Below the pieces are notes generated by a model, which saw only the letters and a list, made by a program, of their open reading frames with translations, was not told where the DNA came from and made no database searches. A program made the translations under genes and the position numbers. From Branchiostoma floridae (Eukaryota; Chordata; Leptocardii; Amphioxiformes; Branchiostomatidae), in contig NW_023365727.1 of assembly GCF_000003815.2 (NCBI RefSeq), positions 58,717-122,716 on the forward strand: a stretch of 64,000 nucleotides of DNA, given 5' to 3'. This document shows, in pieces, positions 27,380 to 63,680 of the stretch (positions are counted from its first letter, which is position 1; each line of letters starts with the position of its first letter).

Positions 27380-27530
27380 GGGCCCGGTCAAGACGTGCAC
27401 ATCGCTGCGGCAGATGACATTGACGACTCAGGTGTATTTGACGAAAGTGATGACACCACCGATGACGCCTCGGACATCGAGGCAGCGGTGTTCCGCGCCA
27501 TGAAAGCATCGCCAGAGTCGACCCTGGGGA
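27380..27530 (+). CDS. acidic exon-like ORF running into a minisatellite
   Basis: After an in-frame TAA at 27377 the frame reads GPGQDVHIAAADDIDDSG, FDESDDTTDDASDIEAAVF and RAMKASPESTLG, then enters the 28-bp minisatellite at about 27531. Asp/Ser-rich content and lack of stops suggest a former coding exon. The acceptor (CTAAG|GG) is weak and no family is recognised. The minisatellite period is not a multiple of three, so the downstream frame changes with every unit. Confidence 0.3.
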
Positions 27531-28082
27531 CAAAACACCTCCCCAGCCGACCCAGGGGGACATCACACATCCACAGCCGACCCAGGGTGAACAAAAATTT
27601 CCACCCCCGACCCAGGGGGACAAAACACCTCCATAGCCAACCCAGGGGGAAAAAACACATCCACAGCCGACCCAAGGGGAAAACATCTCCACAGCCGACC
27701 CAGGGGGGAAAGATCTCCACAGCCGACCCAGGGGGGGGGGGGGGGAAACCTCTCCACAGCCGACCCAGGGGGAAAACATCTCCACAGCCGACCCAGGGGA
27801 AAAACATCTCCACAGCCGACCCAGGGGAAAAACATCTCCACAGCCGACCCAGGGGGGAAAACATCTCCACAGCCGACCCAGGGGGAAAACATCTCCACAG
27901 CCGACCCAGGGGGTAAACATCTCCACAGCCGACCCAGGGGAAAACATCTTCACAGCCGACCCAGGGGGCAAAACATCTCCACAGCCGACCCAGGGGGTAA
28001 ACATCTCCACAGCCGACCCAGGGGGTAAACATCTCCACAGCCGACCCAGGGGGAAAACATCTTCACAGCCGACCGAGAGGGA
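27531..28082. repeat. 28-bp G/C-skewed minisatellite (~19 units)
   Basis: The core is CAGCCGACCCAGGGGGAAAA plus CATCTCCA. Units differ in the G run (3 to 13) and by small substitutions; the first five or six are more diverged, the last dozen nearly identical. Because the unit has no stop in several frames on both strands, long open frames of about 110-216 codons arise by chance. Confidence 0.92.
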
Positions 28083-28810
28083 AAAAATTGAAACAGGAAT
28101 ATACTATTATTAAGATTTAATGGAAGATTGTTTCCTTAATTCATTCCTCTAAGAAAATTTGAGGAATTCATTGGCACCTCACAGTCTAGTGGAACTCAAG
28201 TATCTACGGATACCAGCAGTCACTACATCTACAAGACCTTCCCTTTCATGATCACTTTAACTTTTCCACCAAATCATTTGTAGACATAATGGGCTTACAT
28301 GCAAACAACACTCACAACAGAAAAAACAGATGAAGAAAGAGAAGAAAACATTGGGGCAGTCCAGCAACAATGCTTGGAGTGATACACAGTCCCTGTACAC
28401 ACGTTTTATCGTTCTTCAGGCACCTGTCAAACAGCATTCCCCCGGAAGAGGTACTTAGTAAAAAACATGAGTCACACGAATCCAATGCATGTCTCTATAT
28501 ATGTCTAGTATGTCTAGGAGTTTACAAGTAAAGCAAAGCAGAAAAAAAAGCAAAGAAGTTAAGGGTACGCCAAAAAACATAGCAAAATGATACTAGCAAC
28601 ATCGCAAGAAGATACATATATTCATTTATTAATATTACAATACAGTGCGCTTTTTTCTTATCTAGATTTTCATATGAAAACAGTAACAAGATTTTAAACA
28701 TTACTTGGATTGAAATTGAAAACACAAATAGGCTAGACACATATTGCTTAATCAAAGACAGATCTAAGACAGAAGTATCTGAGAGTTATTAATGTTTTAA
28801 TCACAGAAAG

Positions 28811-35365: not shown

Positions 35366-37400
35366 GGTGTGTAAAGTCCATACAATGTTAGAATCATTTA
35401 CACCTTGGCATACATAATGTACATTACTAGTAAATTTACCCAAAAAATGCAGAATGGTTGTACGCATGTCTTATGGGCTATGGCGATAGCGAGTATGTGG
35501 ACAGGGAGTTCACCTCGGTGTACTTTGCAAAAACGCTACCAAGCAACTCACCCAGAAAGCTTACAACTTCCGGAGGGTGGTGTGGGTAAAGTTCTTGGAC
35601 AAGGCATGTACGGCAAAAATGTGCCCGCCGAAGGCCAGGGATTAGACTACTATCGTGGTACAGATGCTTTCTCAGATGTTGTCTGGTGATGTTAATATAT
35701 TCTGTGTAATAGATTAAACATGGAAAAGGCGAATGTTGCTCAGTCCACAAGGGGATTATTTTACTTAATTTAGCTACACCTTGAATATAACACAATACAG
35801 ATAGACCTCCCTAGAAAACTATCCGTCAAGTTGGAACCAGGTCCATCCTTACATTCTACGTAAAAAAAATCTTGTATTTGTAATAAGGTTTTGCTTGATA
35901 TATTGGTACCCAACTTTAACAAATCTCATTCTTCTATAACGATGTTATTTTACAATGATTATTTGATAGGAAAATATAAAAAGTCATAACACAATGCTAC
36001 AAACATTCAAAAATATACTTTTCAAAATTGCATGTTAATTTTTTGGGCTGTTGAACATGGACGAAAAGAGGTCAGGGTCAGCGGTGCGCTGCATACCCTG
36101 AAATGAGTATGTAAAAACCAAACCAGGGTGGTGAAATCTCAACTTCAAGTGTTCTATAGAAATAGGCTTCTGGAACATTCAAGGCAGATCTCACCACTCC
36201 AGATGTATTGTTAGGACAGGAATGGTGTTACTACTGTCTAACCCATATTTGGTCTGCTTGATATCCCAGACCCTGATCAGACCACACTGCAAAAAATGGG
36301 CTGCTGCCAGCGAGGCGTACGAGGAAGAAAACAGGGGGAGAACGGCTGCATTATCAGGAGCTTAACAGCATTATCTCTGTGAAGGGCTGAAGTACCATCA
36401 GGAACACGAGCAAAAGGAATGAAACGTTATTTGTGGCCTTGACATCCAGCAAACCCATCTAACTAAGCTGAACAAGCCCCCACTGTACCAGAGGCACAGT
36501 CCCCGAAGTCTGGGTTTCCAAGAGGCTTGACAACTGTAATATTTTAAGACCTGACTAACAGAACCTGAGTAAGCTGGATGTCCTGCCATTGCCAATAGTT
36601 TTGCTCTGTCACCTGTTTATATTTGGATGTGTAATAGTGTATGGAAGATAACATTGCAACAGCTACTGTTGTTCCCATCAAGGGGCTGGTTGTTTTGTCT
36701 CAGTTTTTAACGCCAGAAATTTCCCCCACAAAAGGCCGACATGACCTTCACCAAAAACCAGTTTTCCTCGCCGTTAATATTTTTTTCCAGTTTCAAATTG
36801 CAATGTACTAATTAACCACCGAAACAGCTATACTATAAGATGACAAGAAACATTTCTGAGGCACAATGGAAGAAAAAATAAGAAGACAAAATTTGGTGAA
36901 ACAGATGTCCACCCTCACCTCACAATGGCCGCCCTGCTCTGAGTGGACTCCGCACAGTACAAAAGACTTCTCTTGTATCAATACGCGTAAACATCTGGAA
37001 TGCTGCTGAACTTTAAATGAAACACTTACATACAGCTTATATCGACAAAATTTTTAAAAATACATTTAATAGTAAAAAGCAAACAAGAGAATCAAATGTA
37101 ACCGCATTAACAATAGTACGTTCTAATTCTGGCTGCACTATTTTATGGCGGCGCTTGTGTATATTTCGTCTGGGGAGGGTATTCGGTGGCGGCTGGATGA
37201 TGACGTGTACAGCGCACCGGGGGTTACGTAGGGGTTTTTCGAAGTACCGCTCTTTAAAAAATATCTATACACGTACTCTCATGTCCCTAATAAACATACC
37301 CTCCGGAATAAACATACCCCCCGGACAAATCGTCAATAAAGGGTTAATGCCCCGGCCCGAGGTGTATATGGTGAGATAATCCCTGGTCAGGTGCGATAAC
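35366..37400. other. no recognised gene
   Basis: Intergenic-like sequence, moderately AT-rich. I found no motif-bearing frame on either strand. Any 3' continuation of the gene at 32.5-33.1 kb should fall here or beyond, but I cannot point to an exon. Confidence 0.45.
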
Positions 37401-37576
37401 TGAAACAACCAGAGGGGCGAATAAGAACAGAAAGAAACAACACCCCGACTCCCGGGATTCGAACCCGCGCCGAACCCGGGCAGCCGGATCACAAATCGAA
37501 CGTGCAAACCGTTCGGCCAAAAGGCTTAAGCCGTTAGGCGTCTTCGGTTTAGCAGTCCTTGAACACCACTGTTACA
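37401..37576 (-). repeat. TRIM 3' LTR with tRNA-like promoter boxes
   Basis: On the minus strand it starts TGTAACAGTGG and ends GGTTGTTTCA. It contains TTGGCCGAACGG (37509-37520), close to the Pol III A box, and GGTTCGAATCC (37455-37465), a perfect B box, about 45 nt apart. The arms that would form a tRNA acceptor stem do not pair, so it is tRNA-derived, not a working tRNA. Confidence 0.8.
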
Positions 37577-37680
37577 CTACTCCCCCTTTTCTTTTCAAGA
37601 TTCGTCCTCGAATCTCCGAGATCGACATCCCTGTGTGGCACATACTAGCCTGTTACTCACAGGGCCGGCGTGGGAACCAG

Positions 37681-37856
37681 TGAAACAACCAGAGGGGCGA
37701 ATAAGAACAGAAAGAAACAACACCCCGACTCCCGGGATTCGAACCCGCGCCGAACCCGGGCAGCCGGATCACAAATCGAACGTGCAAACCGTTCGGCCAA
37801 AAGGCTTAAGCCGTTAGGCGTCTTCGGTTTAGCAGTCCTTGAACACCACTGTTACA
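37681..37856 (-). repeat. TRIM 5' LTR with tRNA-like promoter boxes
   Basis: Same 176 bp as the other LTR, with A-box-like sequence at 37789-37800 and B box at 37735-37745. As the 5' LTR on the minus strand it would place internal Pol III promoter elements upstream of the primer-binding site. Confidence 0.8.
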
Positions 37857-37860
37857 TAAC

Positions 37861-38052
37861 TGTTACCCGCCCGTTCTGTCCACTTTAGATGATGTTTAGG
37901 GAGCCCAGAGGTGACACAAGAGCGACTAGGAGACTGGAGTTGAAACGACGTAACTTGATGTTTATTCTTTTTCCCGGCTACTGCCACGACGCATGCGCGT
38001 CGGCCCGGACTATCCCATTATCCATAAAGGGGGTTATTTCTACATGGCAACA
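37861..38052 (-). repeat. Ty3/gypsy 3' LTR (192 bp)
   Basis: On the minus strand it begins TGTTGCCATGTAG and ends GGGCGGGTAACA, with matched TGTT/AACA termini. It is preceded on that strand by the polypurine tract TTTAAAAGAGGGGAGAG (38053-38069). An AATAAA signal lies inside at about 37963-37968. It abuts the TRIM's TAAC flank. The matching 5' LTR is not present in the window. Confidence 0.75.
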
Positions 38053-38299
38053 CTCTCCCCTCTTTTAAAGTCGTCTCGGAACAATAACAATAACAATAAG
38101 AAACTATTAATGAACATATATATATATGGTTGTTTAGTACTATGAAAAATAAAGGCTATATTCTATTCTATTCTCCTTTGCGTTAGCCTCTTTTTTTCTC
38201 TTTAGCTTTGGCACCGATAACATCTTTAACTTTGGCACAGATAGCATCTTCAATAAACTGGCTTCACTGCTACTAACAGAAGCTCCAACGTACTGGCTT

Positions 38300-38859
38300 N
38301 NNNNNNNNNNNNNNNNNNNNNNNNNNNNNNNNNNNNNNNNNNNNNNNNNNNNNNNNNNNNNNNNNNNNNNNNNNNNNNNNNNNNNNNNNNNNNNNNNNNN
38401 NNNNNNNNNNNNNNNNNNNNNNNNNNNNNNNNNNNNNNNNNNNNNNNNNNNNNNNNNNNNNNNNNNNNNNNNNNNNNNNNNNNNNNNNNNNNNNNNNNNN
38501 NNNNNNNNNNNNNNNNNNNNNNNNNNNNNNNNNNNNNNNNNNNNNNNNNNNNNNNNNNNNNNNNNNNNNNNNNNNNNNNNNNNNNNNNNNNNNNNNNNNN
38601 NNNNNNNNNNNNNNNNNNNNNNNNNNNNNNNNNNNNNNNNNNNNNNNNNNNNNNNNNNNNNNNNNNNNNNNNNNNNNNNNNNNNNNNNNNNNNNNNNNNN
38701 NNNNNNNNNNNNNNNNNNNNNNNNNNNNNNNNNNNNNNNNNNNNNNNNNNNNNNNNNNNNNNNNNNNNNNNNNNNNNNNNNNNNNNNNNNNNNNNNNNNN
38801 NNNNNNNNNNNNNNNNNNNNNNNNNNNNNNNNNNNNNNNNNNNNNNNNNNNNNNNNNNN
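38300..38859. other. assembly gap (560 N)
   Basis: Falls between the end of the gypsy integrase region and its 3' LTR. Confidence 0.98.
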
Positions 38860-40452
38860 CAAGTAGCCTGGTTGGCCACCTACATCATACGTGAGAGTCC
38901 GTGGTGGCCTCCTATTTCGTCTGGGTCTGTTCTCTTCTACTTCTGCTGGGTCTGGAACATCCTCAGCACCCTGAGACACACAGGGCTGGTCCTCAGACTC
39001 AACTTCAACATCAGTTTCTTCATCCCTTTCACTCCCTGTACTTCCTCTCTGGTCTTCTTGTTCAGCTCCAATTTCGACTCTGTTGTCTGCAAGTTCTTCT
39101 TCCTCATTATCACTCCTCTTGTCCTCTCTTTGAGGTGTTTTCTCTTTGCTTTGTTTGTCCACTGGAACCTCTAGAGGCAGTCCGTCACACGGTAGTAGCA
39201 TATTTCTATGCAACACTCTTGACCTTCCTTCTCTGCATTCTGGGCGTACCTCATACACTGGAATATCTTTCCCCTTCTGCTTCACAATGATGTGGACTTT
39301 GTCCTCCCAGTGGGAACGCAACTTGCCCGGTCCTCCTCTGTCCGTCATATTTCGAACAAGGACCCGGTCACCACTGGACAGACTGAGACCGTGCACCCTT
39401 CTGTCGTACTGCTTCTTCCCTTTTGCACCTGTTTTCCTGGCATGCTGACTCGCAATCCTGTAGGCCTCCTGCATGCCACGTTTCCATTTCTTGGCATACT
39501 CAGGATATGATTGAACCTCATTCTCCTTGTCTTCAATCCCGAACATAAGGTCCACTGGCAGGCGGGGGTGATGTCCATACAACAGAAAGTGAGGCGAATA
39601 CCCAGTGCTCTCATGTCGGGTGCAGTTGTACGCATGAACCACTTTGTTAAGAGACGCCTTCCAATCTGTTTTCTGGGATTCTGGGAGAGCACGTAACATC
39701 GCTAGCAAAGTCCGATTAAACCTCTCCACCTGACCATTTCCCTGGGGGTGATACGGGGTTGTTCTCGAGGGCGACACTCCACTCAGCTGATGTAGGCGTT
39801 GAAACAACCTATTTTCAAACTCTGCTCCCTGGTCATGGTGAATCTTGAGAGGGTACCCAAATCTAGGAATGAAGTCATTAAAGAGCTTCTCTGCTGCTGT
39901 TCTCCCTGACTTGTTCCTGGTTGCACATGCTTGAGCGAACCGTGTGAAATGGTCCACAACCACCAAAATGTACTCGTAGCCACCTTTGCTCCTTTCAAGG
40001 TGGACATAGTCAATGGACACCAGTTGTAGCGGCTCAGTGGTGATGATGTTAGTAAGTGGGGCTTTGTCTGGAATGTTTGGCTTCCGGCGCTTAATGCACT
40101 GACACTTGGAGGTACAGTATTCAACTATGTCTCTCTGCATCTTTGGCCAGTAGAACCGTTGTCTTGCCAGGCTGACAACCCTGTCTGCTCCCAGATGGCC
40201 CATTTTGTCATGTAGTTCTTGGTACACAATGTTTCTATATTCCTTCGGGAGCACTACTTGCAGTACTGGACCAGCTCTCCGGCGGAGAATGCCCTCATCA
40301 TCGATCTGCAGCTTTTTCCACTCCCGCATGTATTCTCTTGTACCAATTGAGTTGTCTTGCCTCTCTCGGGTAGTGGGATTCCTCCCCCCTTCTTTCAGCT
40401 CTATCACCTTTCTAATGGCCGAGTCCCGACGTTGCGTTCACCGATCTCCTTC
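38860..40452 (-). CDS. Ty3/gypsy integrase
   Basis: The minus-strand frame carries, in order, the H2C2 zinc-binding region (HDKMGHLG ... CTSKCQC), then a DDE catalytic core: first Asp in [10 protein letters not shown], second in [10 protein letters not shown], Glu in [20 protein letters not shown]-like module follows ([19 protein letters not shown]), then an acidic tail ([17 protein letters not shown] ...) of about 130 residues. The enzyme inserts element cDNA into the genome. The core is uninterrupted. It is separated from the RNase H part by a 149-N gap whose size may be wrong; the two segments are not in one frame as assembled. Downstream sequence up to the LTR is hidden by the larger gap. 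Confidence 0.9.
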
Positions 40453-40601
40453 NNNNNNNNNNNNNNNNNNNNNNNNNNNNNNNNNNNNNNNNNNNNNNNN
40501 NNNNNNNNNNNNNNNNNNNNNNNNNNNNNNNNNNNNNNNNNNNNNNNNNNNNNNNNNNNNNNNNNNNNNNNNNNNNNNNNNNNNNNNNNNNNNNNNNNNN
40601 N

Positions 40602-41459
40602 TGTGCAGGTAGCCATAAACTGCTCAGCATCTCCTGGACTTGGTACTCTTGACAGCACATCTGCATCTGCATTGGCTTTCCCAGGTCGGTACTTGATGCT
40701 GAAGTTATAGTCCACCAGCTCTGCCACCCATCGGTGACCTGTCGCATTCAACTTGGCCGTGCTCAGAACGTAGGTGAGTGGATTATTGTCGGTATATACT
40801 TCAAAAGATGGGGCGTGGTACAGGTAGTCTCGGAATTTCTCAGTAATGGACCACTTGAGAGCCAAGAACTCCAACTTCCCCGAGTGCATGTGGTAATTCT
40901 TCTCTGCCGGTGACAGTGTCCGTGAACCATATGCAATCACCCGGAGCTTGCCCTCTTGCTGTTGATATAATACTGCGCCCAAACCATTGGCTGATGCATC
41001 TGTGTGCAGGATAAATGGTTTTTCAAAGTCAGGGTAGGCCATCACAGGTGGGCTGGTCAGTTGTTCTGTCAGTTGATTAAGGATATCTTGGTGTTCCTCA
41101 GTCCACTGGACTGGTTGCTTCGCAGCACTGTCCGACAGCAGGTCGTACAGTGGTTTAGCAATTCTACTGAAGTCCTTGATGTACGTCCTGTAGTACCCGA
41201 GGAACCCAAGCACCCGTCGTACATCTCCTACAGTAGTGGGCTTCTTGTCTCTGATTGCCTTGACTGCTGCTGTATCTTCTGGATCCATCGTGTACCCATC
41301 TGCAGTGACTAGCTTCCCGACATACCTCACCTGTCGTCGGAACATCACACATTTCTTTGGCTTCAACTTACAGCCATGTTCCTGGAACCTGCGCAACACT
41401 CTCCTGATGCGCTCGACATGTGACTCAAAGCCTTCACTGTAGACCATGGTGTCATCCAT
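40602..41459 (-). CDS. Ty3/gypsy reverse transcriptase C-terminal part and RNase H
   Basis: The frame opens inside the catalytic box at DDTMVYSEGFESHVERI and continues through the RT thumb (KCVMFRRQVRYVG, RRVLGFLGYYRTYIKDFS). It then runs into RNase H (FILHTDASANGLGAVLYQQ, KLEFLALKWSITEKFRDYL, FEVYTDNNPLTYVL) and ends near RPGKANADADVLSR. The RNase H acidic residues D, E, D and a final D are all present. Fingers and first part of the palm, gag and protease are missing: the sequence runs into a 100-N gap at 41470, and beyond it lies unrelated sequence with a host-like exon at 41737. The 5' half is therefore deleted or misassembled. Confidence 0.9.
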
Positions 41460-41736
41460 ATACGGTCACNNNNNNNNNNNNNNNNNNNNNNNNNNNNNNN
41501 NNNNNNNNNNNNNNNNNNNNNNNNNNNNNNNNNNNNNNNNNNNNNNNNNNNNNNNNNNNNNNNNNNNNNTTAGTCGTATTGCCCAAATATTCATTACTAA
41601 TGTCTATATTATACTTTGCCTCCTCTCCTACTGTACAGGAAGAGAATGCTATCCAATAAATGTGAGCAGAAATTAGTCCAACCTTGAACATCTGGGTGCT
41701 AATTCCTTGCATTGACTTAAATTTCTTTGCTGCCTA

Positions 41737-45958: not shown

Positions 45959-48900
45959 TTAAGTTGAAATCATGAGGTTCCTTTTCTGCATTGATGTGTA
46001 TATGTATTGGCCTACGTAAACGGAAACAGTGTCGGGACATGACATAAGTACATGAAATAACTCTCTGTTTGTCTTAGGTAATGATTTGTTCTTTATCGTC
46101 TGCATTAATTTAGCTCTTTCTTCTATGTAAGTTGGACATTCTATCATGAAGTGGTATTCATCTTCTACGCCTTCTTTGCATGTTGGACATAGTCTCTGGC
46201 TCGCTGGGACATTATTGTGTCGGCCCTTTTCAATTTCTAACCGATGTGCAGCAATTCTGAGTTTTGTTGTATTGGCTACGAAAGATTTGTTTTGGACCGA
46301 AAGCAAGTATTTCTCAATATGAAATTCAGATTTTATTTTTGAATATGTTTCGAGTTTACTGAAACTTTTGATTTTTTGTCGCCAGCTGGATAGAAACTCG
46401 TCTTTAAGGCGCTCCTTGAACATGTTTCCAAAGTAGTTGGCGCTTACGTTGGGGTTCAGCCAAATATTTTGGAACCCGTGTCTACAGAGTGTATCTCGTA
46501 CATGTATAACCCAGTCTTGTTCTAGTCTTACAGCTTCATTATATGCTTTTTTCACGATTCTGTCATTCGAGAGGCTGTTCAATCTTATCCAATATTTAAC
46601 CAGTTGAGTCTGTGTATCTATGTATAGCGGAAACATGCCCAATTCTCCCCTTACTGCAGCGTTAACTGAACTTTTGGGGACGCGGAGAAGTATTTTGCAG
46701 AAGTTTAGAAGAACATATTCTAGGTCGGAAACCTCGTAAGAAATTGGAGGTTGAGTTACCGTAATGTTTTGTTTAGCTAATGTATTGGAATGATATATCA
46801 TCTGTAACTTATCATTGTACTTGCTGAGTCGAATTAAAACCGGACGGTTAGATGGTGGGTCGGATTTTTTTCCGACACGAGTAGCTTTACGGATATTAAC
46901 ATCCGATCCTAGTATCGGAGATATAATGTTGGATAATATTTGTCTTATGTTTTCATTTGGACATTCCGTTATTCCATTAAGGATGAGATCCCGTGATTGA
47001 ACTGTTGTTCCCAGTATCTCGCTGCAATAAAGTAGAATTGGTTTGACTAAACTATTAAATAAATCAAGTGCTAGTGGAATGGATGGGTTGTAGTTTGACA
47101 GAAGGAGGGATCTGAGTTTGAAAGAAGCCCGGAGGGCTTTTATTCTCAGTTGTTTTGTTGCACGCTGAAATGATCCGGAGGGTGTTATATCTACCCCCAG
47201 ATATGTATAAAAGTTTGTAATGTTTAAGGACTGTCCTTGTGATTGGAAATTTGAGTTTATGTTGTAACCTGTTCGTCCAGTTTTTGAAAATATCATAACT
47301 TTAGTTTTGTCTCTATTGATTGCTAGCTTCCAGAGTGAGCAGAATCTGTCTAGTCTCTTTAGGCACTCTTGGAGACCACTTTCTGACTTTGAGAAGAGGA
47401 CTAGGTCATCTGCCCATAGGAGACTGTTAATTGGAGTATTATCGAGAGTGACAGGATCACATAATGATGAAGACAACTCGCTAGGGATGTCATTTATAAA
47501 AAGGTTAAATAAAAGGGGGCTTAGATTACACCCTTGGCGTACGCCGCACGTTGATTTAAAGTAGTCTGACAGGCCACCAGGAGTTTTAACACAGTATTTT
47601 ATGTAGGAATACATGGATTGTATGATTTTGAAGAATTGTCCACCTATGCCTGATGATAACAGTTTGTAGTACAAGCCATCTCTCCAAACAGAGTCGAATG
47701 CTTTCTTGAAATCAACAAAGCATGCGTATAACTTTCCACCAGGTTCAGACAACTGTTTATCGATGATAGTTTTAAGCACGAAGATGTTGTCACTTGTCCG
47801 GAAGTTTTGTCTAAATCCGGATTGAGAAGGAGTCAATATATTGTTATCTTCTAGAAAGTGCTGCAGACGGTTACTTAATATGAGAGTGAACAGTTTCCCA
47901 ACGCAGCTAGAAATTGCGATCCCTCTATAGTTTGACGGGTTGGATGTATTGCCGCTTTTGTGTATGGGGACGAGAATGTTTTGACTCCATTGATTGGGAA
48001 ATGTACCGGACTGGATGGCGAGATTGAACAGTTTCTTCAGTGGTATGACAAGTTGGTTTGTGCTACATTTTAGCATTTCATTAGTGATGGAGTCTGTGCC
48101 ACATGCTTTACGGCCCTTTAGTTTATGTAGTCCGGCTATGATTTCGTCTTCTAAAATGTCATAGTCCAAGGGATTTCCCGTTTTATTTGCAAGGGTATTG
48201 ATAATAGTTTTGGTATGCTCCTTATTTCCTATGTCAACTTCGTTATCACTTCCCGTTGTCTGAAGCAGGTCTGTTTCTTTCTGACCGATATGTTGATGGA
48301 AATCTGTGTCGGCTTCATTAATTTTTACAAGATCGTTCAGATTTTTGAAGTGAGTTTTCCACTCTTCAGGGCTTATGTTATTATTTTCATCTTGTTTATC
48401 ATTTCCATCCTGGTTTTGAATTTTCATTTCTCTCCAGAATTTTTGTGGGTCTGATTTACTGAGTTTATAAAGATTGTTCCATTGCCTTTCTTTGAAGAGC
48501 TGTCTTTCTGCTTTAATCTTTTTCTTGTAAATTTTAAGGTTGTTAAAATAAGCATGGCGAAGATCAAGTTTCCAGGGACATTTAGAAAATTCTGTAGCTA
48601 AACGATTGACTTTCCGTTTGAGAGCAGCACATGACTGGTTGAACCATGGTTTGTTTTTGTTTTTCCTTTTCTTTTTCTTTTTGTAGACAATCTTCCGTAA
48701 TGACTTGTCGGCAACATGTATGATAATGTCTTCGATTTCTTTCACGGCGTCTTCTACAGTAGGGAAGGATTTATCCATGAATTTCTGTAAATCTCTTACA
48801 GTTGAGGGAGCTTGTAATGCCTCTGTAAATTTGTCTTTAGGATTGTCGTCCCAAACATATTTGGTCGGTAAAGGATGCGAAAAAGGTTTGGTTTGTTTTA

Positions 48901-49732
48901 TATAGGGTGAATAATTCGTAGAGATTGAGCATGTTATTAAACAGTGATCAGAGAATACGGAGGGATCGTCAACTTTGAAGTATCTAACTTTTGGAAAGAA
49001 TTTCGAGCTAACAACACAATAGTCCACTAAACTAGAACCGTTATATTTATGGCAGGTAAGCTTTCCGGACAGGTCTCCTGCGACTCTACCGTTTAGAATG
49101 GTTAGATCAGCAGATGAACAGAGCTCAATTAAGTGCTTGCCGTATTTGTTTACACCTTTGTCGCAGCTTGATCTATACCGTAGGTCATCTTTGAACTCTA
49201 TAAAATCGTGATTTAGGCAGTCATCTTGAATTGTAGTNNNNNNNNNNNNNNNNNNNNNNNNNNNNNNNNNNNNNNNNNNNNNNNNNNNNNNNNNNNNNNN
49301 NNNNNNNNNNNNNNNNNNNNNNNNNNNNNNNNNNNNNNNNNNNNNNNNNNNNNNNNNNNNNNNNNNNNNNNNNNNNNNNNNNNNNNNNNNNNNNNNNNNN
49401 NNNNNNNNNNNNNNNNNNNNNNNNNNNNNNNNNNNNNNNNNNNNNNNNNNNNNNNNNNNNNNNNNNNNNNNNNNNNNNNNNNNNNNNNNNNNNNNNNNNN
49501 NNNNNNNNNNNNNNNNNNNNNNNNNNNNNNNNNNNNNNNNNNNNNNNNNNNNNNNNNNNNNNNNNNNNNNNNNNNNNNNNNNNNNNNNNNNNNNNNNNNN
49601 NNNNNNNNNNNNNNNNNNNNNNNNNNNNNNNNNNNNNNNNNNNNNNNNNNNNNNNNNNNNNNNNNNNNNNNNNNNNNNNNNNNNNNNNNNNNNNNNNNNN
49701 NNNNNNNNNNNNNNNNNNNNNNNCGCTGACAT
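45959..49732 (-). CDS. LINE ORF2: endonuclease-reverse transcriptase
   Basis: The frame opens at ATG 49732, crosses a 486-N gap (residues 4-165), and then runs over 1,090 codons without a stop. The end of an APE-type endonuclease is visible (FSDHCLITCSIST, about residue 260). After a basic linker (KPWFNQSCAALKRKVNR) the RT follows: GRKACGTDSITNEML (~540), NYRGIAISSCVGKLF (~600), CFVDFKKAFDSVWRDG, GVRQGCNLSPLLFNLF and the catalytic LWADDLVLFSKSES (~775). A C-terminal knuckle, CPTCKEGVEDEYHFMIEC, sits at about 1180. The enzyme nicks target DNA and primes reverse transcription there. The ORF1 on the same strand ends 250 bp upstream. Apparent intactness suggests a young copy of the CR1/Crack/L2 group. 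Confidence 0.9.
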   Translation of the reverse strand: MSAXXXXXXXXXXXXXXXXXXXXXXXXXXXXXXXXXXXXXXXXXXXXXXXXXXXXXXXXXXXXXXXXXXXXXXXXXXXXXXXXXXXXXXXXXXXXXXXXXXXXXXXXXXXXXXXXXXXXXXXXXXXXXXXXXXXXXXXXXXXXXXXXXXXXXXXXXXXXXXXXXXTTIQDDCLNHDFIEFKDDLRYRSSCDKGVNKYGKHLIELCSSADLTILNGRVAGDLSGKLTCHKYNGSSLVDYCVVSSKFFPKVRYFKVDDPSVFSDHCLITCSISTNYSPYIKQTKPFSHPLPTKYVWDDNPKDKFTEALQAPSTVRDLQKFMDKSFPTVEDAVKEIEDIIIHVADKSLRKIVYKKKKKRKNKNKPWFNQSCAALKRKVNRLATEFSKCPWKLDLRHAYFNNLKIYKKKIKAERQLFKERQWNNLYKLSKSDPQKFWREMKIQNQDGNDKQDENNNISPEEWKTHFKNLNDLVKINEADTDFHQHIGQKETDLLQTTGSDNEVDIGNKEHTKTIINTLANKTGNPLDYDILEDEIIAGLHKLKGRKACGTDSITNEMLKCSTNQLVIPLKKLFNLAIQSGTFPNQWSQNILVPIHKSGNTSNPSNYRGIAISSCVGKLFTLILSNRLQHFLEDNNILTPSQSGFRQNFRTSDNIFVLKTIIDKQLSEPGGKLYACFVDFKKAFDSVWRDGLYYKLLSSGIGGQFFKIIQSMYSYIKYCVKTPGGLSDYFKSTCGVRQGCNLSPLLFNLFINDIPSELSSSLCDPVTLDNTPINSLLWADDLVLFSKSESGLQECLKRLDRFCSLWKLAINRDKTKVMIFSKTGRTGYNINSNFQSQGQSLNITNFYTYLGVDITPSGSFQRATKQLRIKALRASFKLRSLLLSNYNPSIPLALDLFNSLVKPILLYCSEILGTTVQSRDLILNGITECPNENIRQILSNIISPILGSDVNIRKATRVGKKSDPPSNRPVLIRLSKYNDKLQMIYHSNTLAKQNITVTQPPISYEVSDLEYVLLNFCKILLRVPKSSVNAAVRGELGMFPLYIDTQTQLVKYWIRLNSLSNDRIVKKAYNEAVRLEQDWVIHVRDTLCRHGFQNIWLNPNVSANYFGNMFKERLKDEFLSSWRQKIKSFSKLETYSKIKSEFHIEKYLLSVQNKSFVANTTKLRIAAHRLEIEKGRHNNVPASQRLCPTCKEGVEDEYHFMIECPTYIEERAKLMQTIKNKSLPKTNRELFHVLMSCPDTVSVYVGQYIYTSMQKRNLMIST
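49238..49723. other. assembly gap (486 N)
   Basis: Hides most of the ORF2 endonuclease domain; its length keeps the ORF2 frame, which may be coincidence. Confidence 0.98.
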
Positions 49733-49982
49733 ATTGAGTTTGACAATTGGACGATAATACCAAATATTCTACAAGTGAGAGCTTAGCTACTTTGTGCGCA
49801 GAGTTAATCAATACAAGTTAACGTAAATATGTACTAAAACTTACATTACATGCGGGTTTCCCCTTTCATGGTAGATTGTACAGAAGTATTTGTATGTGTA
49901 ATTATAAGGTAATTTTGTCACCTGGGTGGTCACTTGGATAAAACTGGTCGTTATCTTTCTAGCGAACCGGCATGTCTTCAGT

Positions 49983-52538
49983 TTAGTGTCTCAGGAAGTC
50001 TGCCAACATGTTCATAAGTGTCTCCACAGTTTGACGCTTGTCCCCAGTCTCAGCAAACGACGGTCCAGTCTTGTGGTTCCACTGTGGAGGTGGCGGGGGT
50101 ACCTGGTTCCAGGGAAACAGCAGTGGCGGGTTCCTCTGAGGCATCCGCAGGGGCCCTGGCGAAGGTCGTCTGTCAGGCTGCACGGGCTTCCTTGGAGGTT
50201 CCTGCCGGGGTCCCAATGGCTGGTGTCGGTCGGATTGTGTGCGGTACGACACTGATGCACCGTTTCTCCCTGGGTTCATGTGTTGTGATGTCGGGTTTCT
50301 GTCCTGTCTGTCTGTCCGATTTACAGCATGAGCTTCCCGTTGGTGCCGAAGTGTACGTTTGACGTCCGCTACCAAAAGTCTGACGCCTGTGTCGGGTTTG
50401 ATATGGATCCCGTCAGGCTTGTATAGCGATCGATCTTCTGACAAGAGTCTATGTCGGATATATATGAGGTCGTTATCCGCCAGACAGGACCTTTCAATGG
50501 CGTCATTGTATGAAGCTATGTTCCTATTGAGCTTGGAATTCATATTCGTTCCTCGCGGTAGGACCTGCGACATCCCAATCTTTGCGTTAGGAAAACACTC
50601 TCTAGTAGACTCGATAACTTTGTGTGTTTGCTCTATACAGGTGGCAACGCTGTCTGGTCTGTTTTTAGTATTGTCCAAATCATTAGATGCGACATGGATG
50701 ATGACAAGCTCGGTGTTGGGATCTGGGGACGCGATAATCCTTTCGGCGGCTCTTGGTAGGGTAGTGGTTTTGGAGATGCTTGCTCTTTTGTGTTTGTACA
50801 TTTTCTCGGGATCGACATCATTCCACAGGGAATCCGCAAAGATTCTTACTTGTGTCGTTACACCTTGATCGTTTTCGGTTGGAGTTGACGCTGTTGTGTT
50901 TCCGTCAGTTTGAGCGGGGGCGGGAGCGGTGGCGGTGGCGGGAGCCGATGACTTGGTGTTCGGGGCTGCATCGGTGATTGGGTTTTGTGCTCGGCCTCCA
51001 GTAACGATTTCAGAGTACAAACGATTTATTCTGGACTCATCCTTCTGAGCTTTGTTCTCTACTGGTGTTGTTTGGATGTCGGATGGTTGAGCTTTGTTCG
51101 TCATTCTGGAGTCATCCTTCTGAGCTTTGTTCTCTGCTGGTCTTGTCGGAGTGTTGGATGTTTGAGCACGGTTCGTCAGGATGAGAACTTGAGCTTGCAA
51201 AGCGTCATGGTCGGCTTTCTGAGAAGCTAGTGTGTCAGTCAGGTTCTTCGTGATTTCACGTTGACGTTGAAGTTCAGAGCCAAGGTTCTCAATTTGTCGA
51301 GATTGCTTGTCAATCACGACTTTCCTGTTCTGCAGGTTGGCTTGTAGACTAGCGATTAGTTTTCCTTGTTTGTCCATAGTTACCTTGTTGCTGAAAACCA
51401 GGGTCTTCAGCTCGTTCATATCGTCCACCAGCGTTGTGTACATATTTTCGTAGTCAGTACTGGGGAGCTTTGCACTTGTTTCTGGCTCTTTTGGAAGGTC
51501 CATCTTTAGAGCTTGGCGCGATCGTGGGTTTGAGAGTTGTGGGTTACTCCCCATCTTGTTTTTACCTGCAGACTCCCGTACTTTTGTGAATGGAGTAAGG
51601 AAAATGTTCTCAAGACCTCCCAGTACTTTGCGGATGGAAGGAGACCTGAGCGATTTTGGAGTTGTGTTTTCTGTTAGGATGTCTTTCTCTACGGCCAGAT
51701 CCTTGGTCAAATCAACAGTTACAGGCTCCAAGTTTGTTGTCTGTTCTAAGTCACTGTCAGGCGCTGTCATGGCGGACACTTCACACTCGGAGGTAGTCTC
51801 TATTGTCTTAGCGTCGTCGTCTTTTGTTTTATCTACGTCAGCCTCAAGTTCCTTATGCATAAGTCCGCCATCNNNNNNNNNNNNNNNNNNNNNNNNNNNN
51901 NNNNNNNNNNNNNNNNNNNNNNNNNNNNNNNNNNNNNNNNNNNNNNNNNNNNNNNNNNNNNNNNNNNNNNNNNNNNNNNNNNNNNNNNNNNNNNNNNNNN
52001 NNNNNNNNNNNNNNNNNNNNNNNNNNNNNNNNNNNNNNNNNNNNNNNNNNNNNNNNNNNNNNNNNNNNNNNNNNNNNNNNNNNNNNNNNNNNNNNNNNNN
52101 NNNNNNNNNNNNNNNNNNNNNNNNNNNNNNNNNNNNNNNNNNNNNNNNNNNNNNNNNNNNNNNNNNNNNNNNNNNNNNNNNNNNNNNNNNNNNNNNNNNN
52201 NNNNNNNNNNNNNNNNNNNNNNNNNNNNNNNNNNNNNNNNNNNNNNNNNNNNNNNNNNNNNNNNNNNNNNNNNNNNNNNNNNNNNNNNNNNNNNNNNNNN
52301 NNNNNNNNNNNNNNNNNNNNNNNNNNNNNNNNNNNNNNNNNNNNNNNNNNNNNNNNNNNNNNNNNNNNNNNNNNNNNNNNNNNNNNNNNNNNNNNNNNNN
52401 NNNNNNNNNNNNNNNNNNNNNNNNNNNNNNNNNNNNNNNNNNNNNNNNNNNNNNNNNNNNNNNNNNNNNNNNNNNNNNNNNNNNNNNNNNNNNNNNNNNN
52501 NAGTCGAAATAAACGGTATAGAACAGTCTGCGGAACAA
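49983..52538 (-). CDS. LINE ORF1 with coiled coil and SGNH-hydrolase-like domain
   Basis: Sequence visible below the 629-N gap encodes, in order: an acidic, Thr/Ser-rich region; a long heptad coiled coil (MNELKTLVFSNKVTMDKQ ... ENLGSELQRQREITKNL); a Gln/Thr/Pro linker with two copies of an ENKAQKD segment; an SGNH-like domain; and a Pro-rich basic tail. SGNH blocks are RIFADSLWNDVD (Ser in A-D-S where the family usually has G-D-S), HVASNDLDN, and DGIHIKPD with the Asp-His pair. Esterase-like ORF1 proteins are known from CR1/L2-group LINEs and bind nucleic acid or membranes. The start lies in or beyond the gap; the listed 5' boundary at 52538 is only the open limit. Confidence 0.8.
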   Translation of the reverse strand: MFRRLFYTVYFDXXXXXXXXXXXXXXXXXXXXXXXXXXXXXXXXXXXXXXXXXXXXXXXXXXXXXXXXXXXXXXXXXXXXXXXXXXXXXXXXXXXXXXXXXXXXXXXXXXXXXXXXXXXXXXXXXXXXXXXXXXXXXXXXXXXXXXXXXXXXXXXXXXXXXXXXXXXXXXXXXXXXXXXXXXXXXXXXXXXXXXXXXXXXXXXXXXXXXXXXXXXXXXXXXXDGGLMHKELEADVDKTKDDDAKTIETTSECEVSAMTAPDSDLEQTTNLEPVTVDLTKDLAVEKDILTENTTPKSLRSPSIRKVLGGLENIFLTPFTKVRESAGKNKMGSNPQLSNPRSRQALKMDLPKEPETSAKLPSTDYENMYTTLVDDMNELKTLVFSNKVTMDKQGKLIASLQANLQNRKVVIDKQSRQIENLGSELQRQREITKNLTDTLASQKADHDALQAQVLILTNRAQTSNTPTRPAENKAQKDDSRMTNKAQPSDIQTTPVENKAQKDESRINRLYSEIVTGGRAQNPITDAAPNTKSSAPATATAPAPAQTDGNTTASTPTENDQGVTTQVRIFADSLWNDVDPEKMYKHKRASISKTTTLPRAAERIIASPDPNTELVIIHVASNDLDNTKNRPDSVATCIEQTHKVIESTRECFPNAKIGMSQVLPRGTNMNSKLNRNIASYNDAIERSCLADNDLIYIRHRLLSEDRSLYKPDGIHIKPDTGVRLLVADVKRTLRHQREAHAVNRTDRQDRNPTSQHMNPGRNGASVSYRTQSDRHQPLGPRQEPPRKPVQPDRRPSPGPLRMPQRNPPLLFPWNQVPPPPPQWNHKTGPSFAETGDKRQTVETLMNMLADFLRH
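51873..52501. other. assembly gap (629 N)
   Basis: Covers the N-terminal part of ORF1 and the transition to the LINE 5' end. Confidence 0.98.
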
Positions 52539-52736
52539 GCAATGGCTCTGAAAGTTATTGACAGGCGAAGCTTATTTGATGCCATTCTGGTCAGTGCGGC
52601 CATCTTAGTCCTATATAATATGTAGTAACCTGCTGCTTGGGGGGGGGGGGGCGAAAACGCTAAAGGGGGGCGAAAACGCTAGTGATCTCGCCCCCCGGGG
52701 GGGCGAGATCACAGGGGGGGCGAGATCGCTGTCACA

Positions 52737-53616
52737 CCGGTACGTTTACGACGATTTCTCTAGCCATACTGATTTGACAAATTGTCAACGCATCATTTTC
52801 TCCAGTTACATGTTGCTGTTATAGGTTACCCTTGCCACTTCTTCTGTGTAACTTTTCTGCCACTCTTGTCCTGCTAAAAGCGTAATATTGTAATTGTAAC
52901 ACGCCGCGGAATTACACGGCGAACGGGCGCGTGGTTGGGAGGGGGTACAAAATACAGGTAGGAAGAAACACGGCACAATTAACTGCCGCTATGTACATTT
53001 ATACATCCTCTGATGTTCCTTCCTTTTCTGTCAGTAAATGCATAAAACATAAACCTGCATGAGCATACAAAATGTCATGAGAAAACGGACGTATACTGTC
53101 AAGAATTTTCATTTAACTTCTGTCCGTCACAACCGCTATGAGGTAACACTTCACTGCTAGCGTAGATATAAAAATGGCGGGAAAATGGCTGCGTATGTTC
53201 AATTTTGCCCATTCAGTTGTAGATCCGGGCTATTATGCAACGGTTCTTCACACTTTTACATGAGTTGTAGGTCACCAACAGAAATTCAAGATTGTTGTTG
53301 AATCATGTTCGTCTTGTGCCGTGAGCATGTGTAATTATGATCTATGTGAATTTGGCAATGAATGTGACAGTGTGTTCGTCCCACGACGAGCTGCCTACCC
53401 CGAAATTTAAAAAAAAGTATACTGAAAACTTTTGGCCTTGTTGTCTTCGAATGCATTGTTATCGATGCTTTGTAAATGGTGTATTGGACACATAGATGTC
53501 TGAAGTGTGCACAGCTCAGAAATAACTATTGTTGCATGTGTAGATCTCTTTAAGTTCCAGTATTTTTAATCTACCGGTATAAGTCTTACTACCGGTATTA
53601 TGCCAATGCATGTTAA
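52737..53616 (-). mobile_element. 887-bp TIR element, second copy, main part
   Basis: This is the reverse complement of about 9055-9920, with high identity, e.g. GATTTGACAAATTGTCAACG, GTTACATGTTGCTGTTATAG and GGTTCTTCACACTTTTACAT. It ends in TGCCAATGCATGTTA at the outer terminus. With the remnant at 44621-44645 it makes a complete element interrupted at its ACCGGT. Confidence 0.88.
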
Positions 53617-59356: not shown

Positions 59357-60384
59357 GGACTCCTGTCTTGGCCCTGACTGCATCTGCAGACCTTAAGACA
59401 CGGAAGGATATCGTCCGCCTCCTAGGAATGAGCTCGGAAACCACTTATGTAGAGGCAAGGTTGGATAGAACAAACATAAGACTAAGCGCTGTGCGTGTGA
59501 AGTCAACAGACTTTACCTGCCTTGATTGGGTTGTTTCTGGGTTGAAGACACATGGTACTTCATTTGACAAAGTGATCATCTACTGTAAAAGTTTCCCGGC
59601 TGTTGGGGCTATTTACAAACATCTAGTGAGACAGGGTGGTGATCAAGCTTATGTTGGCACAAAGCGCTCTGACCACTGTCTTGTTGCAATTTATCAAAGT
59701 GAAACCCTTGAAGAGAAGAAAGAACATGTAATGAGCTCCTTTGTTTAGTCATGCTCAGTAGCCCGTGTTATCGTTGCAACAACTGCACTGAGCATGGGTA
59801 TCAACTTTCCTGATGTTAGGTATATTGCAATGTATGAACCTCCAGCAAACATGGAGGACCTGCTACAGCAACTGGGGAGGGCAGGTAGAACAGGACAGCA
59901 GTCTCATGCTGTGGTTTATACTTATTCTGTACAGCGGTGTGACAAACAGGTAGCACAGTATGTCCGGACTGACAAGTGCTTGCGCACCACTCTGTATCAC
60001 AGGTTTGAAAGAGAACCAACAACAAAGCCTTTCAGTCCAGGACATCTATGCTGCTCTGTTTGTCACCGCTCGTGTACATGTGGTAGTGGCTCAGATTGCA
60101 AGGAGCCCGTCCCAGTTTCTGACTCTGTAGGGGGCGTTAAGACAGAACAACGTTGGTTGACAAGAAGTGTTGACCAGCGCCAAAAAGATGTACTGAGGGA
60201 GGCACTCTATGAGTACCGAGACTCTTTGGTCCAAGAGAAGAAATTGCTTGTGTCGGTAGATCTAACCACAGGGTTTACATTGGACCTCATAGAAAGTGTG
60301 GTAGAAGAGTGCCCTTACATATTTGACGCAAAGTATGTATACGATAACGATAACGATACAAAGGAAGCAATGGGCCACCTATAA
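59357..60384 (+). pseudogene. RecQ-like DNA helicase, C-terminal half, one in-frame stop
   Basis: After a CAATCCAG acceptor the frame starts at helicase motif III (TPVLALTASADLKTRKD). It runs through the second RecA-like domain (DKVIIYCKSFPAVGAIYKHL), motif V (RVIVATTALSMGINFPDV) and motif VI (LLQQLGRAGRTGQQSHAV), then a RecQ-type zinc-binding tail (CLRTTLYHRF ... HLCCSVCHRSCTCGSG). RecQ enzymes unwind DNA 3' to 5'. A TAG at 59746-59748 interrupts the frame just before motif V; reading resumes in the same frame. Motifs I and II are absent. After KYVYDNDNDTKEAMGHL the frame stops at 60382-60384, overlapping the ATG of the next ORF. Confidence 0.85.
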
Positions 60385-61832
60385 TGATCGGCCCTATGGC
60401 CCTTGTACAATACAAAAATAAAGAATCATATATCTCACTCTTTGACGCGTTACTCAGCCATAAACCAGAATTAAAGGAAAAACTACAGGCATATGGATCA
60501 GACGGAGAGCCTGCGCTGATAGAGTCACTGGAGGACTCATTCCCATTAGCTAAAGGATACCGCTGTAGTATTCACCTTTGGGACAACATAAAAAGAAAAT
60601 GCCGTACACTGGGTATACCGTCTTCCACCACATCACAAATGATAGAAGATCTCAAACAGCTTCTCTCGACAAGTAACAACTTCAAAAGTGATCTTAGTAC
60701 CCTTCAAGACTCCTGGATGGCCTTGGGTCAAACTAATATGAAAAAATTCATCAACTATTGCAAACGTGCCATTTTCCCAGTAATAGAAAACCAGGTTGTG
60801 ATCAACATAAATGGAGAACGTTACCTATATACACAAAATGACAGTGAATCTCTGAATGCAATGGTTAAAAGATGGACATCATTCAAACCCCAAGACATAG
60901 ATGCCTTTATTGAAGATATCAAAAAGTTTGTAACAAATCAGGAGAGTGAAATAGTTAAAGCGTACTTAGGCTTGTCAACACAGTGGGAAGTTACAGACAA
61001 CAGCCAGCAACAACCACCAGAATGGTTGACTGATGATAGCATAGAAAACAGAGAGCAAAGAGTAATGGAGCTGTTATTGGGCTATTCCTCACATGATATG
61101 GATACAAATGATAACAGTAACAGCTTTAACGAAGACCAGACCATCGGGGAAATCGAAGATTTGGGAACTGATAATATGATCGACATTGAGGGCGAGGAAT
61201 GTAGAGACTGGGATTGCGCAATGGACCTTACTTTAACTGGACACTCAGAAACAATGGTGCGGGGGGTTATAGAAAAAGCTAAACATTTGGTGCATTTAAG
61301 AAAGGTTAAGGAGGGTTTTTCTGGGGGAAATGATTGGCTAGTAGCTAGCCAAACATCTCAATACCCACGCCGTGTGCAAAAAATGAAGGCGGGGTGGTTT
61401 AAATGCGATTGTAGAGGGTATAAGGCAAGCAGTATTTGTGCACACTCTCTTGCCTCTGCATTTTACAATAGCAACTTAAAAATGTATATTTCCTACTTAC
61501 TAAAGAAAGGAGTTAAGACAACATGTGACCCACTACATGCAGGTACAGCATCAAGTCCTGGGAAAAAAAGCCAGCCTTTAGAAAAAAGAAGGAGAAACTC
61601 TCCAACCAGATTTCCAACTCAATGTATAAACAAGCAGCCGGCAGTTATCTCTCCCAAACCATGGCTTGACTACGATGGCCCATGGCAATTGTTTCCGTGG
61701 AAAAATTGTAGGTGCAGAGTTTGTGCAGGTTGTCGAAAGAGTTTTCGTGATGAGCCAACACCAACACATGGCCTTCGTATACGGCACTATGAGGCTGATT
61801 TTAAGAGGGGGACAAAGGATCTTGCACCATAA
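60360..61832 (+). CDS. MULE-type transposase-like protein with SWIM zinc finger, N-terminally truncated
   Basis: The 482-codon frame from ATG 60384 begins MIGPMALVQYKNKESYISLF, followed by LQAYGSDGEPALIESLED and YRCSIHLWDNIKRKC. These are the second catalytic Asp (D-G-E) and C..H..N blocks of MULE transposases. A Glu-bearing NDSESLNAMVKRW block follows. Residues ~340-355 hold a SWIM finger, FKCDCRGYKASSICAHSLA (CxC...CxH). A Cys-rich tail, CRCRVCAGCRKSF, ends it. In-frame sequence just upstream (GSNGPPI) fits the same family, but the first catalytic Asp region is missing. MULE proteins excise and insert DNA transposons. It lies in a different frame from the RecQ segment and overlaps it by one base. 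No introns are seen. Confidence 0.8.
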   Translation, partial: KGSNGPPIMIGPMALVQYKNKESYISLFDALLSHKPELKEKLQAYGSDGEPALIESLEDSFPLAKGYRCSIHLWDNIKRKCRTLGIPSSTTSQMIEDLKQLLSTSNNFKSDLSTLQDSWMALGQTNMKKFINYCKRAIFPVIENQVVININGERYLYTQNDSESLNAMVKRWTSFKPQDIDAFIEDIKKFVTNQESEIVKAYLGLSTQWEVTDNSQQQPPEWLTDDSIENREQRVMELLLGYSSHDMDTNDNSNSFNEDQTIGEIEDLGTDNMIDIEGEECRDWDCAMDLTLTGHSETMVRGVIEKAKHLVHLRKVKEGFSGGNDWLVASQTSQYPRRVQKMKAGWFKCDCRGYKASSICAHSLASAFYNSNLKMYISYLLKKGVKTTCDPLHAGTASSPGKKSQPLEKRRRNSPTRFPTQCINKQPAVISPKPWLDYDGPWQLFPWKNCRCRVCAGCRKSFRDEPTPTHGLRIRHYEADFKRGTKDLAP

Positions 61833-62065
61833 GTACCAGGGCCTATCATTTAGACTTGAGATGCATAAAATTAAGGCATCCATCCTTCAACCCCGTAGAA
61901 GAAAAAAATTAAGTAACTGTTGATTACCGCGTCACCGATGAACAACTCCAACATGCACAAGACTTGTTGGGTTGTACAATAACACGGAATCCCCCTTAAT
62001 TGTACTTGTTAGTTTATACACTCAAATCATTTTGACATGTTAAGAACAGTGCACGTCCCCTTAAC

Positions 62066-62865: not shown

Positions 62866-63680
62866 CCTCCCCCATACACCCATTTCCAGGCTCCATGTTT
62901 GCACTCTAATGTTTGGTTTTCAACTTTGATAAGAACAGTACTACTCTCTGATGTTTTCATAATTAATGTTTGACTCTTCGGTGTAAACACAGTATCTAAA
63001 ACTTCATATAATAATATGATGATGATATAAGACTATGGTGATTACAATATTTTAGCAAGCAAAATTGGCCATTTTGTGTTCACCATGCATATCCATGTGT
63101 AACAACACTCAACATGTTTTTTCAACTCAATTCATAGCATACAGTTACCTGTGTGTTTGGTGTCCATAAAAATGTGTAGTAGCCTTATAAGTTATACCAG
63201 CGTAGGTCCCAACCTTTTATACAATGATAAATGTTCTCAAAACTGTAACTGATACAAGTGTTAAATTAAATATTTAATATTCATTCTTAACACCTGTGTC
63301 ATATTGGTCCTCTGTAGCTAGCTTAAGGCAGGAGGTTGAATAAAAAATGTATAATTTTGATTTTGCACTGAAGTTACTCTTTCCATTTCATTTTTTGCTT
63401 GACAATGTATTTAATAAATAGTCAATGTAGCTAGTCTCTTGCCTCTTAATGTTACATATTAAACATTGACACCAGTAAGTGATTACATTTTGATACAACA
63501 CAAATTTCTCTTGCAAAGTGAGGAAAATGGCTTCATTTAGCCATAAGGGGCACCTGATGCAGATAACTTAATATGTCCCTTTCTTCACGATCGTTTCAGA
63601 CAATCATGTACAAATAATGTAGTCATCCTGCACACCTTCATTAAAGGTAAGGTAAGCATTATATATGATTTTGTTTTTGT
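62866..63680. other. no recognised gene
   Basis: AT-rich sequence. The first ~120 bp carry degraded satellite units (CATAATTAATGTTTGACT near 62955); beyond that nothing stands out. Confidence 0.5.

Follow-up and report, generated by a model that had tools for sequence, protein, structure and literature searches.

Our analysis revealed that a 456-bp feature in Branchiostoma DNA is a real LTR element that transposes, has moved recently and carries no genes. Judged from the sequences of its relatives, antisense tRNA-Glu beside their LTRs shows that reverse transcription is primed by mature tRNA-Glu(CUC) and that this primer is itself sometimes copied in full. This mechanistic record, the primer-tRNA copies beside LTRs, is the new part of the finding.

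Results

The window, by which we mean the whole stretch of 64,000 nucleotides that was analysed, holds the element at positions 37401–37856, where all its parts read on the minus strand in the order TSD (GTTA), LTR, one base, PBS, interior, polypurine tract (PPT), LTR and TSD (GTTA). Repeat comparison showed that the 5' LTR (37681–37856; TGTAACA...TGTTTCA) and the 3' LTR (37401–37576) are 176 bp each, begin with TG, end with CA and are identical letter for letter; the interior between them is 104 bp long. The flanks carry the left TSD at 37857–37860 and the right TSD at 37397–37400, both GTTA in element orientation. The 5' LTR is followed by a one-base spacer (C, 37680) and by the PBS TGGTTCCCACGCCGG (37665–37679, read 37679–37665), which was found by comparison with tRNA-Glu and lies opposite the 3' CCA of the tRNA. 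The PPT GAAAAGAAAAGGGGGAGTAG (37577–37596, read from 37596) directly precedes the 3' LTR, and translation of the interior yielded the remnant RFEDES* (37595–37615), which resembles the end of a Gypsy pol frame; we take FEDE to be the signature of that end. The initial annotation had claimed two identical 176-bp TG...CA repeats, a PBS-like sequence starting with TGG one base inside the 5' LTR, a polypurine tract before the 3' LTR and a TAAC flank on both sides, and all of these were borne out, TAAC being the TSD GTTA in element orientation; the annotation had named no strand for the element. Two LTRs, a PBS, a PPT, a length below 1000 bp that leaves no room for the usual genes, TSDs and dispersed copies in the genome characterize the element as a TRIM.

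The assembly from which the window comes (513,431,437 bases, 431 contigs) was searched for copies. A single-LTR query gave 78 LTR matches from 40 scored of 972 candidates, a 38-base piece from the B box to U5 occurred at 434 places with at most 3 mismatches (control, 0), and the exact LTR-PBS junction occurred at 124 places (control, 1). Of the 110 loci collected, the overlapping L006, L013, L021 and L022 were left out; the remaining 106 contained 94 interiors, 90 with an LTR pair and 4 without. Among 78 single copies, 53 had both LTR ends bounded, while 25 were left out of the TSD count with an LTR end that was short or lacked the TG...CA bound; some copies outside the count do have a TSD (L004, L024). 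An exact 4-bp TSD was found in 46 of the 53 bounded copies, the chance being about 1 in 256 for each, and the seven without one include L007 and L075, arrays whose outer ends do match. The full LTR-PBS-PPT-LTR copies with short duplications that a genome search had been expected to reveal are thus present in these 46; the solo LTRs expected beside them appeared as two candidates, L014 and L029, neither with an exact duplication.

Within the 46 TSD-bearing copies, LTR pair identity ranged from 80.6 to 100% and was 100% in 15, which supports the recent movement claimed earlier from the identical LTRs of the window's copy. L128 and L134, on different contigs, carry an identical LTR with a TSD of their own, and the LTR pairs of L128, L132 and L134 (TSDs TTAT, CCTG and CTGT) are identical. 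With the interior as query, the best 40 of 493 candidates were 100% identical over 103–104 bases, and 34 of these 40 start at base 2. Ten of the 34 were examined: eight have the U5 end AATTTCTACA and the spacer A, L129 has the U5 end GGTTGTTTCA and the spacer T, and in L126 no LTR start was found.

Each LTR contains an A-box-like TGGCCGAACGG at LTR position 58–68 and a B box GGTTCGAATCC at 112–122, both in element orientation as the initial annotation had stated; 43 bases lie between them, close to its estimate of about 45 nt. In the 5' LTR, the pattern search and box reading place them at 37789–37799 and 37735–37745, and in the 3' LTR they lie at 37509–37519 and 37455–37465. When the LTR was shuffled 2000 times with dinucleotides kept, the A-then-B-box pattern never arose; 200 shuffles of the whole window, with both strands counted, gave it once. 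Outside the boxes, the likeness of the LTR to a tRNA is weak. ARAGORN called no tRNA in the LTR at its default threshold and a poor 91-nt tRNA fold at a relaxed one; Rfam gave no match in the element at the gathering score, 5S rRNA included, and at lax settings only a T-arm, filed under tmRNA at 14.3 bits. The lax list contained no 5S either, that is, no 5S rRNA-derived promoter of the kind typical of Cassandra and Ajax. The other GGTTCGAATCC of the window, at 55553 on the minus strand, lies within a separate tRNA-like stretch with AGTTAGCTCAGTTGG.

From the A and B boxes we infer transcription by Pol III from inside the LTR, and a simple start-and-stop model for this transcription is not secure. 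Comparison of LTRs placed a TTTT just upstream of, and overlapping, the A box of the 5' LTR (37799–37802), at a site that varies among copies. In the main LTR cluster, this T-run accounts for two of the three columns that vary most; it reads TTTT in 40, TTTAT in 51, TTTGG in 9, ATTTGG in 5 and TTTCGG in 4 of its 109 LTRs, and no run of four T occurs in 71 of all 144 LTRs. Given this variability and the many LTRs without four T in a row, the data do not support one strong Pol III terminator at that place, and we dropped the idea of a TTTT terminator that would leave a very short R region. TTTCTTTC in the U5 part of the LTR is one place where a leaky RNA end might lie instead. The junction in L113, where antisense tRNA meets LTR position 35 and which by eye precedes the A box by about 23 bases, was considered as a mark of the RNA start; it is one suggestive case, and in L120 and L065 the antisense tRNA joins the LTR elsewhere.

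The 144 LTRs fell into clusters of 109, 12, 11 and 6, with six singletons. The first bases are common to these LTRs, as are the U5 part and the B-box zone if deletions and one odd singleton are set aside; the LTRs differ in the A-box stretch, which takes the forms TGGCCGAACGG, GTGGCGACAGCG and GGTGTTGTGG. Strongly unlike LTRs occur within insertions that have an intact TSD (80.6% identity in L096, 86.2% in L108). Since the A-box stretch differs between types and unlike LTRs are paired inside intact TSDs, part of the promoter seems to have been exchanged between LTR types. Another lineage, with the junction TGTTTCA-C-TGGTTCCCA and a U5 unlike that of the main family, was seen at L059, L091 and L093; in the latter two, a unit of B box, U5 and PBS stands in short tandem.

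The PBS of the window's copy has one mismatch to tRNA-Glu in 15 bases. This copy and most of the copies compared read CACGCCGG where the tRNA would give CACACCGG, and since most of them keep the former, the PBS is usually inherited from the element. At 27 loci examined, the LTR end and one base are followed by 25–75 nt of antisense tRNA-Glu. These comprise 19 loci found by simple tRNA scoring (26–75 bases), L121 and L122, and L135–L140 (25–75 bases). Antisense tRNA, in some cases broken or shortened, follows the LTR at L050, L073, L077, L080, L081, L085 and L089, which were picked by the 17-base LTR-PBS junction alone; L085 fell under the cut of the simple scoring and is not among the 19. Most of the other tRNA loci were picked by a pattern that already contained the LTR end and TGG. 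The antisense stretch of L073 was typed by ARAGORN as tRNA-Glu(ctc), i.e. tRNA-Glu(CUC), and the LTR end followed by 25 bases of antisense tRNA-Glu was found at 58 places genome-wide with at most 3 mismatches (control, 0).

Reverse transcriptases are usually thought to stop at position 58 of the primer tRNA. In seven loci (L073, L075, L080, L113, L121, L122 and L139), copying went past this position and reached all 75 bases of tRNA-Glu. The copies beside LTRs include the complement of CCA, whereas the genomic tRNA-Glu genes L123 and L124 have no CCA and continue with AAGT and a T-run; the copied molecule is therefore mature tRNA-Glu. In L139, an LTR remnant and the full antisense tRNA-Glu are followed by the inverted first 15 bases of an LTR, which looks like a fold-back product.

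The TSD script covered the 19 scored loci and found a 4-bp TSD next to the U5 end in 9 of them; L121 has one as well. In L080, L114, L116 and L119, a short piece that ends in a U5 end comes after the antisense tRNA, and the TSD comes next (CATT, CGAC, TACA and GTTG, respectively). L121 is built alike, except that its 511-bp LTR belongs to another family; it has the TSD ACAA on either side and a U5 tail, features on which we dropped its reading as a tRNA retropseudogene. Longer builds with the TSD at their far end occur at L007, L050, L075, L077 and L120, and at L111, L115 and L118 the TSD lies at the break in the tRNA, where a match may be due to chance, as four letters are compared and several offsets are possible. 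No TSD was found within the stretch examined at L065, L073, L081, L089, L112, L113 and L117. In L050 and L075, AG stands between the tRNA copy and the next LTR; linear DNA is expected to end in this way until its ends are trimmed.

We compared eight three-LTR loci (LTR-interior-LTR-interior-LTR), of which seven, all except L065, have a 4-bp TSD outside. The outer LTRs of L002, L007 and L028 are identical, their middle LTR differs by 2, 1 and 5 positions, respectively, and their interiors differ. L101 has three identical LTRs and identical interiors; the three LTRs of L075 all differ by 2, and the last LTR of L065 is of another type. In L020 and L057, the first LTR has another U5 end, and the first and last differ by 7 and 9 positions. 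Antisense tRNA lies between the units of L007, L065 and L075. Because seven of the eight keep an outer TSD and three combine identical outer LTRs with a different middle one, the arrays seem to form before integration and to move as a unit.

A second type of LTR, which looks Pol II-transcribed (AATAAA; 511 bp in L121), has the terminal TGTAAC, one spacer base and a tRNA-Glu PBS; the L121 LTR ends with TTTCA, as in the TRIM. The search for this type (40 matches scored of 90 candidates) gave three pairs 7.8–7.9 kb apart. One pair, on contig C8, has the PBS TGGTTCCCACACCG and an open reverse transcriptase frame with integrase frames downstream (Pfam RVT_1, Integrase_H2C2 and rve), presumably the Gypsy order. 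Its 3' LTR, which begins with TGTAAC, is preceded by GGGGGAGGTAG, and a similar junction of GGGGGAG(G)TAG with TGTAAC is found in both the TRIM and the Gypsy element; the LTR of this Gypsy copy ends with GTTATA, not TTTCA. Before the PPT, RFEDES* in the TRIM interior has a counterpart in TFEDK, which one frame of the Gypsy piece contains. Free alignment of the TRIM and Gypsy sequences beyond the PBS is not significant on the PBS side, where 152 of 1875 random pieces of the window score as well; on the PPT side 21 of 1884 (about 1%) do so, and the likeness of the interiors is suggestive only. L016 is a hybrid of a Gypsy-type LTR, a TRIM interior and a TRIM LTR; as it has no matching TSD, it may have arisen by later recombination. 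A tRNA-Glu-primed Gypsy of the 511-bp-LTR group is the likely supplier of the enzymes of the TRIM.

The TRIM has a Gypsy-like neighbor in the window (38140–41465, minus strand), which is interrupted by an N run and contains frames for RT-RNase H and integrase; inspection by eye showed an LTR-like end with AATAAA and a polypurine tract near 37897–38066. This neighbor was considered as a partner; BLAST with its end region gave no further copy within the window, where TGGTTCCCA occurs in the TRIM alone. At L014, L081 and L092, the TRIM or its LTR abuts a Gypsy-type LTR at nearly the same position (127–132 of a 260-base query), which may reflect an insertion hot spot or recombination.

Discussion

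The route outlined here, from a Pol III start to integration, very probably provides the joint explanation of the element and its relatives. Within the 5' LTR, Pol III would start a little before the A box, and it would read through the 104-bp interior into the 3' LTR. As the sequences of the relatives show, mature tRNA-Glu(CUC) primes reverse transcription at the PBS one base inside the LTR; the second strand, to judge from the anatomy, would start at the PPT, and the product integrates with the 4-bp duplication seen in the sequence. The enzymes would probably be those of a tRNA-Glu-primed Gypsy element. In the relatives, the whole primer tRNA is sometimes copied before the template switch, giving insertions with antisense tRNA beside the LTR. 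Hybrid LTR pairs and arrays probably arise via such template switches or via multimeric templates and then integrate as one unit.

We consider the chances even for a more specific proposal: that the reverse transcriptase time and again copies the primer tRNA to its end and then switches template, that products made of an LTR, antisense tRNA and a short U5 end integrate with 4-bp TSDs as the smallest LTR elements, and that the same step builds the hybrid pairs and arrays. If this is true, the plus-strand strong-stop chemistry of an animal LTR-element system has left a heritable record throughout the genome, and this record is seen both in the TRIM and in L121, where the LTR is that of a tRNA-Glu-primed Gypsy-like relative.

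The A and B boxes and the T-arm could also belong to a tRNA-derived SINE that merely duplicated in tandem, a reading that the initial annotation had raised against its own, with the likeness to a PBS, a PPT and TSDs due to chance. A SINE would be a single unit without an LTR pair, PBS or PPT, and neither the element nor its copies have this form. We rejected the reading because the 4-bp TSDs sit outside the LTR pair (46 of 53); hundreds of LTR copies in the genome, the 100% identity of the interior in the best 40 of 493 candidates and the antisense primer tRNA one base past the LTR end leave it a negligible probability. The LTR element being preferred, the tRNA-Glu beside its LTRs might still reflect a target preference for tRNA genes and not a copied primer. 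Ty3 inserts next to tRNA genes, and a comparison of two lists showed that 11 of the 29 places that match the body of tRNA-Glu coincide with those where antisense tRNA-Glu follows the LTR end, at the LTR/PBS junction. A target preference is nevertheless very improbable, given the one-base spacing and antisense orientation in the loci examined, the TGG complement of CCA that the two tRNA genes examined lack, and breakpoints within the tRNA that differ from 26 to 75 bases; moreover, the seven loci chosen by the 17-base junction alone still show antisense tRNA. We favor the copied primer.

A true TRIM could be transcribed by Pol II, its tRNA-like part being a passenger left by an old SINE insertion in the LTR. 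This would suit the 71 of 144 LTRs that have no run of four T, and Pol II-type LTRs do share the primer system, since the 511-bp LTR of the tRNA-Glu-primed Gypsy relative has AATAAA. The 176-bp LTR, in contrast, lacks AATAAA as checked by eye, and the boxes persist although LTR types are unlike each other around the A box: three clusters have an intact GGTTCGAATCCC in 103 of 109, 10 of 11 and 5 of 6 of their LTRs, the fourth being a partial exception with the shorter GGTTCGATCCC in 5 of 12 LTRs and neither form in 7. We regard transcription by Pol II as improbable and prefer the Pol III reading. With regard to the arrays, unequal exchange after insertion predicts identical units at one site, as in L101, where all LTRs and interiors are identical. 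It fits poorly with the outer TSD kept in seven of eight arrays, with the identical outer LTRs, different middle LTR and different interiors of L002, L007 and L028, and with the antisense tRNA between units in L007, L065 and L075; L020 and L057, with outer LTRs 7 and 9 positions apart, and L075 fit neither model cleanly. Exchange after insertion is thus unlikely, and we favor arrays formed before integration.

The initial annotation had considered that a tRNA-based counterpart of Cassandra in an animal would be notable; such an element is already known as Helenus, a "TRIMp3" and tRNA-like TRIM from six animal phyla (Kojima 2024, PMC10886601). As described there, Helenus resembles the present element in the tRNA-like A and B boxes of its LTR, the PBS and PPT, the 4-bp TSD in animals, the Gypsy-type similarity of the PBS and the presence of several families per genome; tandem arrays are mentioned for LTR-11_DR, and tRNA-Glu is a primer in bivalves. 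The Helenus features found here are the boxes TGGCCGAACGG and GGTTCGAATCC, which fit its box A TRGCY...YGG and box B GGTTC, the 4-bp TSD and a PBS complementary to the 3' end of a tRNA, here tRNA-Glu. In contrast, primer-tRNA copies, hybrid LTR pairs and insertion of arrays as units do not feature in the sections of PMC10886601 consulted. Its main text names no Branchiostoma, amphioxus or lancelet and its Table 1 lists no cephalochordate; on this basis, and by its sequence features, the element is of the Helenus kind in a new host lineage, Branchiostoma. A literature search at the level of titles and abstract beginnings, with few subscription papers, found no report of Helenus in lancelets and none of whole primer tRNAs beside Gypsy-type LTRs. 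Branchiostoma is perhaps the first lancelet host of TRIMs with Pol III-type LTRs, the primer can be named from direct evidence as tRNA-Glu, and the young insertions keep a record of the copying, recombination and arraying of such tiny elements.

Other systems share parts of this picture. Cassandra likewise has a Pol III promoter in its LTR, which is here predicted (PMC7215508, PMC10886601), and short arrays of about three LTRs (PMC7215508); in contrast, its promoter is that of 5S rRNA and its hosts are plants (PMC7215508, PMC10886601). For the Cassandra arrays, exchange, template switching and concatemeric transcripts were proposed and the choice was left open, and the array units are reported there without differences, whereas here they differ in several arrays (PMC7215508). 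Arrays with differing units, identical outer LTRs and primer tRNA inside make this open question testable. Ajax is an animal TRIM with a Pol III-type box set in its LTR; unlike the present element, it is 5S-derived, has a 5-bp TSD and occurs in nemerteans (PMC10886601). Ty1 and Ty3 are LTR elements with a tRNA primer, and the window's copy also keeps a PBS that differs from the tRNA; their PBS is described as strictly inherited from the element, whereas some insertions here carry copied tRNA, even whole (PMC7472051). The tRNA-Gly beside HIV proviruses is also a reverse-transcribed tRNA joined to an LTR element, but it is self-primed, was seen in cell clones and is not the LTR primer (PMC12220202).

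The window contains further repeats and mobile sequences. Inverted copies at 9056–9921 and 52736–53615, about 98% alike and about 43 kb apart, are probably a young repeat. A non-LTR retrotransposon on the minus strand (45959–52571) has one frame for a reverse transcriptase and, upstream of it, another that contains a GDSL/SGNH-hydrolase domain. On the plus strand, a Mutator-type transposase frame (60354–61832) scored just above the Pfam cut-off, and a frame with a helicase C-terminal domain adjoins it (59749–60384). A 28–30-bp minisatellite that is open in several frames lies at 27526–28114, and a tandem repeat with a unit of about 82 bp at 62030–62997.
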